Below are positions 36,818 through 40,778 of a stretch of 64,000 bases of DNA, piece by piece. The notes beneath the pieces were generated by a model. That model saw nothing but the letters and a program-made list of their open reading frames with translations, made no database searches and was not told the origin of the DNA. Position 1 is the first letter of the stretch. Each line of letters begins with the position of its first letter. Source of the DNA: Pollutibacter soli (GTDB taxonomy: Bacteria > Bacteroidota > Bacteroidia > Chitinophagales > Chitinophagaceae); assembly GCA_029269725.1 (NCBI GenBank), contig JARJHS010000001.1:62001-126000 (forward strand), given 5' to 3'. The position numbers and the translations under genes are program-made.

Positions 36818-37825
36818 CTAAAATTTCCTTCGAATCCACGCTGCTGCCGCCTTCACTTTTTCATCATTCGGAATATCATTAAACTTATCAACTGCGGTCA
36901 TCGGAATTTCCGGATCAATGGCTTCAGTATATAATTTCCCTGATCTGTCCGAACTGTATCCGACGGCAAGGTTAATAAACGCAGTATCATTAATCGCAAA
37001 ACCGTTATTGATAGTAATATAGCCTGCTGTTCTTGATCCCAACAGGATAGTGTTCTTTCTTCCTTTAAAAGCCATGATCAGATTTTCGGCTGAACTACCC
37101 GTAATCGGACTCGTAATAATTACCACAGGGATTTTTGAAGCATCAATATTGCAAAACGGTTTAATTGTTGATATAGCCACAGTATCGATCAGAAACTGAT
37201 TTCCTTTCAATATCCAGCTTTCGGTTATGTCGGTATGAAATTCTCCGAGTTTCCCATCGGTGAGTAACTGTTTTAAACCCAGTATCATCGGGTGCATTGC
37301 GCCACCGCCATTCAATCGCAGGTCAACTACTAAACCCTTCACATTATTTTTCGACAGTAATGAGCAGAGACTGTCATTAAGGGACTGTGCCTTTATATTG
37401 AATTCTTCCTTATTGGCAATCGGCATCGATGGAACGCGGATATATCCAATATTTTTATCCAGCATCATAGTGATACTTCTCACACCTTTTTTCCATTCGT
37501 TCCTGAAACTATCCGATACATTTACCTGGTTTGGTTGCCATTGAAATGTACTGTCCATATAAAAGAATGCACCATGGAAATCATTGATCGATTTAAAAAT
37601 ATAACGGACTGAATTTCCCATCTGGTATGGCTTTTCCGCGTCCTTCGCCAGCAATTTTGCTGAATCGGCTATGCCTTTCCAGTCGACAGTTTTTTTATTG
37701 ACTGCATATTTTTTCATGACATCGATCGTCGAATCGATAAGATTGCTGACATATGAAGACTGCGCACATAATGTTTGAAACGAAAACAAAACTGCGATAA
37801 GAATAAAGCCGGTTGATTTCTGCAT
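36818..37825 (-). CDS. S41 family peptidase (C-terminal processing protease-like), secreted
   Basis: The ATG at 37825 gives a signal peptide (QKSTGFILIAVLFSFQTLCAQ); the longer frame is leader sequence. The roughly 335-residue protein has VVDLRLNGGGAMHPMILGLK and VVIITSPITGSSAENLIMAF, with the nucleophile Ser in GSSAEN, and GSRTAGYITINNGFAI, the S41 core. It lacks an obvious PDZ domain. It lies 83 bp downstream of the M56-amidase fusion gene with a terminator between them, so expression may be only partly coupled. Confidence 0.85.
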   Translation of the reverse strand: MQKSTGFILIAVLFSFQTLCAQSSYVSNLIDSTIDVMKKYAVNKKTVDWKGIADSAKLLAKDAEKPYQMGNSVRYIFKSINDFHGAFFYMDSTFQWQPNQVNVSDSFRNEWKKGVRSITMMLDKNIGYIRVPSMPIANKEEFNIKAQSLNDSLCSLLSKNNVKGLVVDLRLNGGGAMHPMILGLKQLLTDGKLGEFHTDITESWILKGNQFLIDTVAISTIKPFCNIDASKIPVVIITSPITGSSAENLIMAFKGRKNTILLGSRTAGYITINNGFAINDTAFINLAVGYSSDRSGKLYTEAIDPEIPMTAVDKFNDIPNDEKVKAAAAWIRRKF

Positions 37826-37830
37826 CCTGT

Positions 37831-37868
37831 AAAAATAAATGCCGTTGCTCATAATCGAACAACGGCAA
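37831..37868 (-). terminator. Intrinsic terminator or attenuator between the M56 fusion and the S41 gene
   Basis: On the minus strand TGCCGTTG (37867-37860) pairs with CAACGGCA (37847-37840) around a 12-nt loop and is followed by TTTATTTTT. It lies 41 bp after the M56 gene stop and just before the S41 start, so it should lower read-through. Confidence 0.75.
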
Positions 37869-37908: not shown

Positions 37909-40353
37909 TTATTTCTTTCCGACTATCGTAGGATAGCTGAATTGAAGTATATAGTAGGTACTTACATTTTTCCCGTTCTGTACCGCAGGAATCCATTTAG
38001 GACCTGATTCGACAAGGTGCGACAATGTCGCCGTAAGTTCATTATCTCCGGATAATATTGTCAGATCCTCAATGGCTCCAATTGTATTTACGACAAACCT
38101 TATTTTAGCTGTACCGGCAAGTGTCCTTTTTGTTTGTTCGTCTTTTTCATTTAGCTCTTTGAAAAGGTATTGATTTAATGCAGACTCTCCACCTGGAAAC
38201 GAAGCTGGTTTTTCCACTTTTACAAAGACTTTATTCAGCTCCTGGACACTATTTTCATCTGGTTTGGTATAAAAGCTGCTGTCAGATTTGTTTATAGTGG
38301 TAATTAAAATCACGCCATCCTTTGCATCATCGCCATACAAAGCTGACGCTGATGCATCTTTTAAAACCTGTAATTCTTTTATGTCTTCCGGGTTTATCAG
38401 CTGATCAAGTGACTTAATATCTGTTCCTTTTTTCAATACAACTCCGTTGAGAACAATCAAAGGCCCGGAAGATACACCACGGATACGTGTAGTCGGATTG
38501 ATCTGGATTGTATTTGACTTTTTGTCGAGAACGGCCGGGGGGACGAAACCTTTTTTATGTGCCTCTTCGAAGCTCATTCGTTCGGCCTTGCCATTATTAA
38601 ATATCACGATCACATCCCCTTTTTCCGTTACATCGACCGACTTCACTCCCTTTGGTAAAGTATCGTTTTCAACGATAAGCATTTTCCTTGCGTAAAAAGC
38701 TACAGGGGTTGCATCTTTTGTAATTCCATCCTGTCCGGTGACCGGTCGATGTATAACAATTGAGTCAGCTGTGACTTTGATCGTATCATTCGTTTCCGGT
38801 AATGCAGGTCCGTGTTTTTTGGCGGCATCAAAATAAGCTGCGACGTCTTGTTCGGGATCAGTCTCGGAATATACTACGCCTGCATTTTGCTGATTGATCA
38901 GAAATTTTTTCGCAGCGTTGAGCAAGCTTTTTGCAATTTTATCGAGATCCTCAGATGATGAAAGTAAACTGCGATCTTCAGGATTAGTAATGAAACCACA
39001 TTCAACTAACACGGCAGGATAATTTACTTCCGGAGCATCCAGAACGTGAATTGATTTTTGCTTTCTGCTTAGAATTTCAACAGGAGTTTTAGAAAACGGT
39101 TTCACTTCTTCTTTAACTGCTGAAGCCAGTGCAAGATTTGAATTATGAAATGAGTTTTTGTTTTCGCTCACGTATACCTGGAAGCCTTTGACATTAGAAG
39201 CTGGTGCAGATGCAATATGAATGGACATAAACACATCAGGATTCGCGGCGGCTGATGCTTTCACTTTCTGTCTTACATCATTAAAAATGTCGGTTTCCCT
39301 CGTAAGAACAATATTCAGGTTAGCATCATGATTTAATGCTTTAATTCTTTTGGCTATGCCAAGGTTCAGGTCTTTTTCATTAATTCCCTCGGCTGTAGCA
39401 CCTTTATCTTCACCGCCATGCCCAGCGTCGATAACGACAGTATAAATTTTGTTTAGTTGCAGATCGTGAGTCTCTTTCGTTTTTAGTGTGAAGCCGGCAA
39501 CAATTATAAAAAGTATCGGTAACACCATTACGCGATTGAAATATGACCGCGCAGGTTTATTTGATTTGATCAGCATTTTGAGTCTTCTTTTAATGGGTGA
39601 ATGAAAAAAATAACTTCCCAACGAAAAGGACTGTTTCGGAAAGGCAGCCTGCAGGATCATCGCTGCAAAAGCAGCTGTATCCTGGTCTCTGACCGCTTCC
39701 CGGTCGGCAATGAACTCGTGGATCATACCGATTTCCTTTCGGATGAGCCAGAAAAAAGGATTGGTCCAGAAAACAATCAGTACACATTGCATTAGAAGTT
39801 TGTCGTAGCTGTGTTTCTGTCTCACATGCGCGATCTCATGCAGCAGGATCTGTTTGCCTGATATGGAATCTGCAGGTATTTCCCTGTTCCAGAAAATGTA
39901 TTTCAGGAAGGAAAATGGTGTGCCTTTTTCAGAAGTATTTAAAAAAGACATACCATCCATCGGGATGATTTCATATCGTTTGATCATGTTCCTGATCTGC
40001 CAGAGTGTGAATAGAAAAGCCAGCAACATTCCCATGGAAATAATCCCATATCCCAATGAAGCCAGGTCTGTGAGCTCAACATGCCTGGCTGCGGGAGCAT
40101 GGTAATTTTCTATGTATGCATCGCCGGTATTCACTACGCGTACCAGCGGAATGGAAGTGATAGAACTGCTTTCATTCTGCGTGTTGACTTTAATTTTTAT
40201 CAACGGCAGCGTAACCGAAAGCAACACTGTGCAAAGAAGATAAAACCTGTTCCAATAATGAAATGCTTTATTTCTTAACGAGAGCAGGTAGTAACCGTAA
40301 AGTATACCTGAACAGATAATTACTTTTAGCAAGTAATAAGCAAAGGCAATCAT
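37909..40353 (-). CDS. BlaR1-like M56 metallopeptidase fused to zinc amidase, SusC-type plug and TonB C-terminal domain
   Basis: The 814-residue protein has four parts. Residues 1-290 are an M56 membrane protease with helices near 5-25, 35-52 and 100-120, the zinc motif HEIAH at 172-176, HEFIAD at 212-217 and a last helix at about 272-290. Residues 303-487 are an N-acetylmuramoyl-L-alanine amidase (Amidase_3) with all zinc and catalytic residues in place: H312 (DAGHGG), E326 (NEKDLN), H379 (SIHIA) and E451 (VECGF). Residues about 628-688 are a SusC-like plug (GPLIVLNGVVLKKGTDIKSL, ending ALYGDDAKDGVILITT), and about 715-808 a TonB C-terminal domain (FPGGESALNQYL; GTAKIRFVVNTIGAIEDLTI). In BlaR1 the protease cuts the BlaI repressor after a periplasmic domain binds its ligand; here the periplasmic part is an amidase. 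The start overlaps the blaI-like stop by 4 bp. Confidence 0.88.
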   Translation of the reverse strand: MIAFAYYLLKVIICSGILYGYYLLSLRNKAFHYWNRFYLLCTVLLSVTLPLIKIKVNTQNESSSITSIPLVRVVNTGDAYIENYHAPAARHVELTDLASLGYGIISMGMLLAFLFTLWQIRNMIKRYEIIPMDGMSFLNTSEKGTPFSFLKYIFWNREIPADSISGKQILLHEIAHVRQKHSYDKLLMQCVLIVFWTNPFFWLIRKEIGMIHEFIADREAVRDQDTAAFAAMILQAAFPKQSFSLGSYFFHSPIKRRLKMLIKSNKPARSYFNRVMVLPILFIIVAGFTLKTKETHDLQLNKIYTVVIDAGHGGEDKGATAEGINEKDLNLGIAKRIKALNHDANLNIVLTRETDIFNDVRQKVKASAAANPDVFMSIHIASAPASNVKGFQVYVSENKNSFHNSNLALASAVKEEVKPFSKTPVEILSRKQKSIHVLDAPEVNYPAVLVECGFITNPEDRSLLSSSEDLDKIAKSLLNAAKKFLINQQNAGVVYSETDPEQDVAAYFDAAKKHGPALPETNDTIKVTADSIVIHRPVTGQDGITKDATPVAFYARKMLIVENDTLPKGVKSVDVTEKGDVIVIFNNGKAERMSFEEAHKKGFVPPAVLDKKSNTIQINPTTRIRGVSSGPLIVLNGVVLKKGTDIKSLDQLINPEDIKELQVLKDASASALYGDDAKDGVILITTINKSDSSFYTKPDENSVQELNKVFVKVEKPASFPGGESALNQYLFKELNEKDEQTKRTLAGTAKIRFVVNTIGAIEDLTILSGDNELTATLSHLVESGPKWIPAVQNGKNVSTYYILQFSYPTIVGKK

Positions 40354-40712
40354 TTAGAAGATTTTTTTAACTCATTCAGTAGTAGTTCAAGTTCTTCGAC
40401 GGTGAGATTGTTCTCCCGAACCATAAACGACACTGCATTGGGGAAGGATCCTTCGAAGTAGGACTTCACCATATTCTTTAAAGTTGAGCCCGAATAATCT
40501 TCTTTACTAACCAGCGGATAATACTGGTGCATACGACCAAACACGCGTATGCCGACAAATTCCTTCTCCACCAGGATTTTCAGAATAGTAGCTACTGTAT
40601 TCTGATGTGGTTTGGGTTCGGGAATTTCGTCGAGTATCTCGCGGAGGAAGGCCTTATCCAGGTTCCAGATCACCTGCATAATCTGTTCTTCTGCCTTGGT
40701 AAGTGATTTCAT
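40350..40712 (-). CDS. BlaI/MecI/CopY family transcriptional repressor
   Basis: The 120-residue protein is a Penicillinase_R-type winged helix: MKSLTKAEEQIMQVIWNLDK at the start, then PHQNTVATILKILVEKEFVG (the recognition helix region) and a C-terminal dimerisation helix with LTVEELELLLNELKK. The usual BlaR1 cleavage site region lies between them. It is the first gene of an operon with the M56 fusion (4-bp overlap). Twin AACTA-N6-TAGTT operators lie 31 bp upstream of its start, so it is probably autoregulated and released by the M56 protein. Confidence 0.92.
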   Translation of the reverse strand: MKSLTKAEEQIMQVIWNLDKAFLREILDEIPEPKPHQNTVATILKILVEKEFVGIRVFGRMHQYYPLVSKEDYSGSTLKNMVKSYFEGSFPNAVSFMVRENNLTVEELELLLNELKKSSK

Positions 40713-40733: not shown

Positions 40734-40741
40734 CAAACGTA
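40734..40741 (-). promoter_or_regulatory. Bacteroidota -7 box of the blaI-M56 operon
   Basis: TACGTTTG on the minus strand matches TAnnTTTG, 21 bp upstream of the repressor ATG. A TTG about 20 bp further upstream is in place for the -33 element. Confidence 0.65.
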
Positions 40742-40742
40742 T

Positions 40743-40778
40743 AACTAAATATTTAGTTCAGCAACTATTTTTTTAGTT
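40743..40778. promoter_or_regulatory. Twin BlaI-type operators (AACTA-N6-TAGTT)
   Basis: AACTAAATATTTAGTT (40743-40758) is a perfect palindrome, and AACTA-T6-TAGTT (40763-40778) repeats the same half-sites with the same spacing. The centres are 20 bp apart, about two helical turns. The first lies directly upstream of the -7 box and spans most of the -33 to -7 spacer of the repressor promoter; the second overlaps and extends beyond the -33 position. BlaI/MecI dimers bind such paired dyads. The ftsE promoter is 40 bp away on the other strand. Confidence 0.75.

Follow-up and report, generated by a model that had tools for sequence, protein, structure and literature searches.

The BlaI/BlaR1 pair is familiar chiefly as a switch that responds to penicillin. 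Which signal would such a switch answer if its receptor carried, in the position of the sensor, the fold of a peptidoglycan amidase? The question is raised by a gene of Pollutibacter soli within the 64,000-nucleotide stretch of DNA analysed here (the window, from whose first letter all P. soli coordinates are counted). A first-pass annotation had described one 814-residue frame that joins a BlaR1-type M56 protease with its HEIAH motif, an Amidase_3 domain, a TonB-receptor plug and a TonB C-terminal domain, and had proposed that peptidoglycan is the signal or that wall cleavage is an output.

The 814-codon gene (37909 to 40353, minus strand) is intact and open from its ATG to its stop. Residues 1 to 295 (39469 to 40353, minus strand) comprise the membrane part and the BlaR1-type zinc protease, with a Pfam match to Peptidase_M56 at residues 168 to 261 (E = 3e-12). 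An Amidase_3 domain follows at residues 306 to 481 (38911 to 39438, minus strand; E = 4e-41, covering profile positions 1 to 172 of 174), then a SusC/RagA-type plug segment at residues 618 to 681 (38311 to 38502, minus strand; E = 1e-7) and a TonB C-terminal domain, TonB_C, at residues 742 to 807 (37933 to 38130, minus strand; E = 8e-6). Each of the four Pfam matches exceeds its curated cut-off, and Pfam and the intact reading frame bear out the annotated architecture in every part except the plug, which is present as the second half of that domain alone (profile positions 44 to 107 of 107). The match to TIGR04056 is likewise partial (57 bits, cut-off 368) and Pfam and NCBIfam detect no beta-barrel in the protein, which thus lacks the full plug and barrel of SusC/RagA TonB-dependent receptors. 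The same libraries contain no match to a penicillin-binding sensor domain up to E = 1, and blaR1_generic scores 27 bits against a cut-off of 400; the protein falls outside the beta-lactam receptors proper.

Structure comparison gives the same assignment for both principal parts. In an AlphaFold model built from 52 sequences (mean pLDDT 82), Foldseek aligned the amidase part to the CwlV amidase 1jwq (E = 1e-14, TM-score 0.90 over the target) and the membrane and protease part to Staphylococcus aureus BlaR1 (8exs, E = 6e-6; 8exr, TM-score 0.62 over the target, E = 2e-3). Profile A1, one of two that we built from 54 usable relatives (49 in A1, 51 in A2), matched BlaR1 8exp over residues 11 to 291 (E = 7e-6). 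Pfam, Foldseek and the conserved sites described below all support a protease of the BlaR1 type whose sensor position is occupied by a peptidoglycan amidase.

The fusion is a family trait. Our sample of the organism's own GTDB family held 195 genomes, the P. soli genome included; 187 of the 195 have some relative at E ≤ 1e-10. From 60 of these genomes we took 60 loci, and in 56 one open reading frame encodes M56 and amidase together (contig ends cut two of the 56). In the genome contigs a single-protein search gave nothing, and an alignment-based one gave a further 80 titled loci, which added 76 non-identical proteins, for a total of 133 with the P. soli protein. Two outcomes had been named in advance as fatal to the idea of a dedicated sensor, an assembly fusion of two genes and an amidase missing from close homologues, and both came out in favor of a fusion receptor. 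Because 132 further non-identical M56-Amidase_3 proteins occur in other genomes, chance and assembly error are excluded. The closest relative is 64% identical over residues 1 to 492, and, contig-end truncations aside, the proteins are 482 to 1121 aa long.

At least 57 of the 195 own-family genomes carry the fusion, and 105 of the 133 proteins are placed in Chitinophagaceae or the own family. Among the 76 added proteins, 48 come from records whose titles place them in Chitinophagaceae and four in Chitinophagales without a family, the rest having no or other higher ranks; Chitinophagaceae bearers include Ferruginibacter, Sediminibacterium, Parafilimonas, Agriterribacter and Lacibacter. The fusion was found in 7 of 18 own-family genomes and 0 of 131 others in an order-wide sample (149 genomes), and in four own-family genomes and one outside in a phylum-wide sample (296 genomes, E ≤ 1e-70); both samples score few candidates per genome, and absence from them is therefore no proof. 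The outside genome (G539), which belongs to a different family within the class, has a blaI gene beside an M56-amidase gene for 475 aa (L301:1951-3758), and a different dyad, ACTACAAATGTAGT, precedes its blaI.

The protease site is complete and invariant. The HEIAH zinc motif (residues 172 to 176; 39826 to 39840, minus strand) is conserved in the alignment, with H172, E173 and H176 in all 131 scorable members (two gaps). The third zinc ligand and an Asp are supplied by H212-E213-x3-D217 (39703 to 39720, minus strand), where E213 and D217 are present in 132 of 132 scorable members (one gap), and R257 and M260 occur in all 133. The S. aureus BlaR1 residues named in the accessible text of PMC9834060 are His201, His205, Glu242, Asp246 and Arg294. 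By order and spacing (E213 and D217 are set apart as are Glu242 and Asp246) the family's residues appear to correspond to these, and the site as a whole to match that of BlaR1. An HExxH-plus-Glu zinc site with its Asp and Arg, the membrane and protease fold that Foldseek matches to 8exs and 8exr, and an adjoining BlaI-type repressor gene in 121 of the 133 loci place the family among the BlaR1-type M56 proteases.

In P. soli that repressor is a 120-aa BlaI/MecI-type protein (40350 to 40712, minus strand; PF03965, E = 3e-29; MecI 1okr, E = 6e-12), and the blaI stop and the fusion-gene start overlap by 4 bp. The gene lies directly upstream in the 121 loci just mentioned; the other 12 are seven loci at contig edges, two with blaI one gene further up and three in which none was found. 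BlaI Ser95 is conserved in 119 of 121 repressors and Phe96 in 103 of 121, and the pair either coincides with the Asn101-Phe102 bond of S. aureus BlaI that BlaR1 cuts or is offset from it by a single residue, the alignment register being open by one.

Ahead of blaI, the perfect dyad AACTAA-N4-TTAGTT forms a predicted operator, O1 (40743 to 40758), and a site scan placed a second predicted operator with one mismatch, O2 (40763 to 40778), 20 bp from the first. The putative -7 box of the blaI promoter, TACGTTTG (40734 to 40741, minus strand), stands next to the operator. Across the family, the dyad precedes 107 of 121 blaI genes, against 0 of 121 shuffled copies, and core sites are 20 bp apart in 103 of 139 pairs. 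In 65 of 117 upstream regions, a TAnnTTTG box, which we take to be the Bacteroidota -7 box, comes 1 to 3 bp after the operator core, where about 0.009 would be expected in a shuffled 25-base stretch. The tandem operators overlap the likely blaI promoter, and the repressor has the Penicillinase_R domain and, at its own promoter, the putative dyad operator of the BlaI/MecI repressors.

O1 is the only perfect site in the 6.1-Mb genome, in which the reversed pattern also occurs once; with up to one mismatch allowed, there are 13 sites and 80 of the reversed pattern. In 38 relative genomes we counted 69 perfect sites, of which 47 (in 29 genomes) fall within 1 kb upstream of an M56-amidase gene, two precede a permease gene that leads the same operon (G070 and G141) and two lie at another blaI-M56 pair. 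The remaining 18, which were compared with two other M56 genes, are elsewhere, against 39 for the reversed pattern. Because of this ratio, a wider regulon was rejected as far as perfect sites go: they appear to mark no targets beyond blaI-M56 gene pairs, and weaker sites may. The permease gene, a large ABC type, heads its operon behind a perfect operator at L050:1070-3460 and L045:1182-3572; the former is ADOP/MacB-like by NCBIfam.

We next consider what the amidase domain retains. The zinc ligands H312, E326 and H379 are present in 133 of 133 members, and in P. soli they and E451 are found at the residue numbers that had been annotated, which gives this protein the three zinc ligands and catalytic Glu of the Amidase_3 family. 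E451 appears, by motif, to correspond to the putative catalytic Glu of that family, which is Glu199 in CwlD in the portion of PMC8496864 available to us. At its position, 118 of 131 members have Glu (two further rows end before it), and the 13 others have Gln (eight) or Gly, Ala, Ser, His or Asp (one each). On a tree of 129 members, computed with that column left out and without four proteins at contig ends (L090, L091, L159 and L191), 12 changes of the catalytic Glu are needed; this is a quick tree that does not distinguish gain from loss and on which the long branches L085, L087 and G539 are of unsure place, and it is our own reading that the Glu-lacking state is a probable loss.

Separate amidases of the same family's genomes behave differently. 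We compared 84 complete separate Amidase_3 proteins, drawn from the better-scoring matches (26 short-form and 58 long-form, one incomplete row excluded), and the catalytic Glu is present in all of them (0 of 84 lacking it versus 13 of 131; Fisher p about 0.002, relatedness ignored). Of the fused domains, 74 of 133 retain the Asn that stands two positions past H379 (P. soli has Ala), against 76 to 77 of the 84 separate ones, the remainder of which have Asp (Fisher p about 3e-8, relatedness again ignored). The span from the third ligand to the Glu is 134 to 163 residues in 35 of the first 42 separate amidases and 65 to 82 in the fused ones, two incomplete rows aside. AmiB/AmiC-type enzymes carry an inhibitory helix, according to the text of PMC8496864 that was accessible, and the short span leaves the fused domains no room for such an insert.

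A metal pocket that is always kept, together with catalysis that is sometimes given up, is the pattern that would be expected of a domain held for binding, and it favors a sensing role over that of a pure enzyme. The loss of Glu elsewhere does not make the P. soli domain inactive, as its Glu is kept; this domain and most members can probably still cut the MurNAc-L-Ala bond, and most members may well be active enzymes because they retain the residue. Of the two roles first proposed for the domain, signal receipt is thus the one favored by the repeated loss of Glu beside an intact zinc site, and wall cleavage keeps the backing of the members with Glu.

With a probability of roughly one half, we read the family as an autoregulated circuit of the BlaI/BlaR1 type, in which a peptidoglycan-binding amidase fold serves as the periplasmic sensor and some members can dispense with cleavage. 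BlaI bound to two operators 20 bp apart, overlapping the promoter, would keep the blaI-receptor operon low. In the periplasm, the zinc pocket of the receptor's amidase domain would take up muropeptides or the stem peptides of peptidoglycan, and a change in its occupancy would move the transmembrane helices and activate the M56 zinc protease in the cytoplasm. The active protease would cut BlaI and release the operon, the main product of induction being more receptor. Where the Glu is present, the domain may both sense the wall and trim it locally; where it is lacking, binding alone can remain.

That the operon would chiefly induce its own receptor is also where the main rival begins. The lack of perfect-operator targets outside the operon is odd for a pure sensor. 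Since the operon holds the genome's sole perfect operator, the fusion protein would itself be the induced product, and the amidase may be the effector: the M56 part, with the plug/TonB tail where there is one, would sense the envelope, and derepression would yield more membrane-tethered amidase to trim the wall. The 118 members with catalytic Glu agree with this, and the tail, which also occurs on M56 proteins without an amidase, could be the sensor. It is less easily reconciled with the 13 members whose Glu is absent, by about 12 changes and with the zinc site intact, a state never seen among the separate amidases; and all 24 of the members of 471 to 535 aa are without a detectable plug or TonB_C to sense with. 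We hold this explanation to be tentative and on the unlikely side, and note that sensor and output may both hold in one protein.

One locus bears on this rival from both sides. In a split form (L310:2050-5160, G013), which occupies the same genomic place, a separate amidase of the fused type, itself among the 84 separate proteins, is followed by blaI and then by an M56 gene without amidase. That a separate amidase, with a hydrophobic N-terminal stretch, stands next to blaI-M56 speaks for the rival. However, the operator stands before blaI only; because it lies after the amidase gene, the amidase is not under its control.

The tails help to define which parts of the protein form its core. Among 52 full-length members, M56 and Amidase_3 occur in all, TonB_C in 24 and Plug in 20; among 19 M56 relatives without amidase, TonB_C occurs in 15 and Plug in 13, and the tails of many such relatives are homologous to that of the P. 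soli protein. The short members show that M56 and amidase can stand alone, since none of the 24 has a detectable tail. Because the tail is optional and common to amidase-free M56 proteins, the core of the family is M56 plus amidase, as judged by domain content, with the amidase placed after the M56 part and ahead of a tail that also occurs in its absence. The suggestion that plug and TonB parts link this receptor to outer-membrane receptors finds no support in the same counts, the tails being optional here, at least as common on amidase-free relatives, and joined or replaced in some members by the other domains described below.

The amidase itself also comes and goes. Its presence changes at least 17 times on a tree of the M56 domain (seven when only well supported branches are counted), a quick tree like the one above that leaves gain and loss undistinguished, and from which L090, L091, L159, L191, L163 and L181 were omitted. 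On this tree the domain appears to have been often gained or lost. Because there are at least seven such changes, the receptor can do without an amidase, which calls for caution over the idea of a dedicated sensor. Other arrangements occur in the sample. At L286:836-3988 (G164), a separate amidase gene lies 145 bases beyond an M56-Plug-TonB_C gene without amidase and shares its strand. At L077:4962-8797 and L082:4944-8512, blaI, M56-TonB_C and M56-Amidase_3 genes stand in tandem, which puts two receptors behind one repressor.

In some members, GldM or type IX secretion (T9SS) sorting domains occur in addition to or instead of Plug and TonB_C: of ten proteins scanned singly, two have the third GldM domain, one a weak fourth GldM domain and three a T9SS sorting tail. 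The C-terminal parts concerned (L039, L038, L055, L068 and L071) are unexpected in proteins with an inner-membrane anchor. Such a range of modules could be read as a set of integrated baits: an amidase for wall cutting, a SusC plug, a TonB tip, a GldM shaft and a T9SS sorting tail would each mimic an envelope machine in the periplasm and be mounted on the same M56 protease, so that trouble in the corresponding machine would lead to BlaI being cut. A bait that had become a sensor would be expected to lose its Glu and hold on to the zinc pocket. We regard the bait reading as an unlikely extension of the sensing idea; if true, it would give bacteria a counterpart to the integrated decoys in plant immune receptors.

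A wall-sensing BlaI/BlaR1-type switch has a precedent by analogy. PMC3305447 describes a dipeptide of peptidoglycan turnover in Bacillus licheniformis, gamma-D-Glu-m-A2pm, that binds BlaI/MecI and destabilizes its complex with DNA, so that pieces of peptidoglycan can act on the repressor. The same observation suggests another role for the domain, in which the amidase frees stem peptides that are taken up and bind BlaI, as in B. licheniformis, the M56 protease and the peptide acting jointly. An amidase would supply the precursor of that dipeptide. Such a role is impossible for members that have lost the Glu. Apart from blaI, whose cases are overlaps of the start, no gene cluster present in at least five loci follows the receptor gene in the operon (same strand, up to 200 bp downstream); and BlaI is cut directly, without further components, in the text available from PMC9834060. 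Taken together, we consider this role improbable.

FtsEX has a link to EnvC. In 70 of the 133 loci, and upstream in 69 of these, a gene for an FtsE-like ATPase lies within 6 kb on the opposite strand, which could be taken to mean that the repressor-receptor pair and the divergent ftsE jointly adjust how the septal wall is split. According to PMC6403190, EnvC and NlpD are activators of the E. coli amidases, and other bacteria use FtsEX to control wall hydrolases. Against this, purM-like, ribF, holA and glycosyltransferase genes are conserved neighbors too, as in a stable chromosomal block; ftsE is also a neighbor in 6 loci from a set of 21 short ones, almost all of which hold M56 genes without a fused amidase and which include the split form; and the FtsE-like protein falls short of the FtsE cut-off (235 bits against 264.85). 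The likely -7 box of ftsE, placed by eye, is about 40 bp from the operators, a position that leaves operator control of ftsE unsupported. Because it is one of several conserved neighbors and flanks amidase-free M56 loci, we do not read the FtsE-like gene as a functional partner, and the division-linked explanation is in our view very improbable. A gene for an S41 peptidase of the C-terminal processing type lies just downstream of the fusion gene (36818 to 37849, minus strand); as a part of the system it was rejected, because a search of the 60 loci taken from relatives gave no match to it at E ≤ 0.01.

Its M56 and Amidase_3 domains make the family a variant of the BlaR1/BlaI kind. With BlaR1/MecR1 and BlaI/MecI of Staphylococcus and Bacillus it shares the M56 HExxH with a third-ligand Glu and Asp and Arg partners, the adjoining repressor gene with dyad operators at its promoter, and a sensor position after the last membrane helix. 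It differs in having an Amidase_3 fold where those receptors have a class-D beta-lactamase-like sensor, in the absence of any resistance gene seen as a target, and in the plug, TonB, GldM or T9SS tails of some members. From short-form Amidase_3 enzymes (CwlV 1jwq, CwlD 7rag and AmiC2 5emi) it has the fold, the zinc ligands, the catalytic Glu in most members and the lack of an inhibitory helix; unlike them, it is joined to a signalling protease, lacks Glu in some members and has relaxed the Asn of SxHxN. E. coli AmiA/B/C belong to the same Amidase_3 family, the AmiB/AmiC type differing by the helix described in the accessible portion of PMC8496864, for which the fused domain lacks room. BlaI-M56-Plug/TonB_C proteins of the same family share the M56 core, the upstream blaI and the tail modules, and differ in having no amidase between M56 and tail. 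Among the literature matches listed, which covered few subscription papers, no title describes an M56 protease joined to an amidase, and the architecture may stand uncommented somewhere.

In Chitinophagaceae, then, the BlaI/BlaR1 switch is joined to a peptidoglycan amidase fold, and this bears on which signal BlaI systems answer outside drug resistance. If the reading that we prefer is true, the family would also provide a ready-made test system, consisting of a two-gene unit with a defined operator, natural variants that have lost the Glu and amidase-free relatives as controls. If wall fragments are what is sensed, it would be a direct receptor of wall state in Bacteroidota, made from a repurposed wall enzyme.
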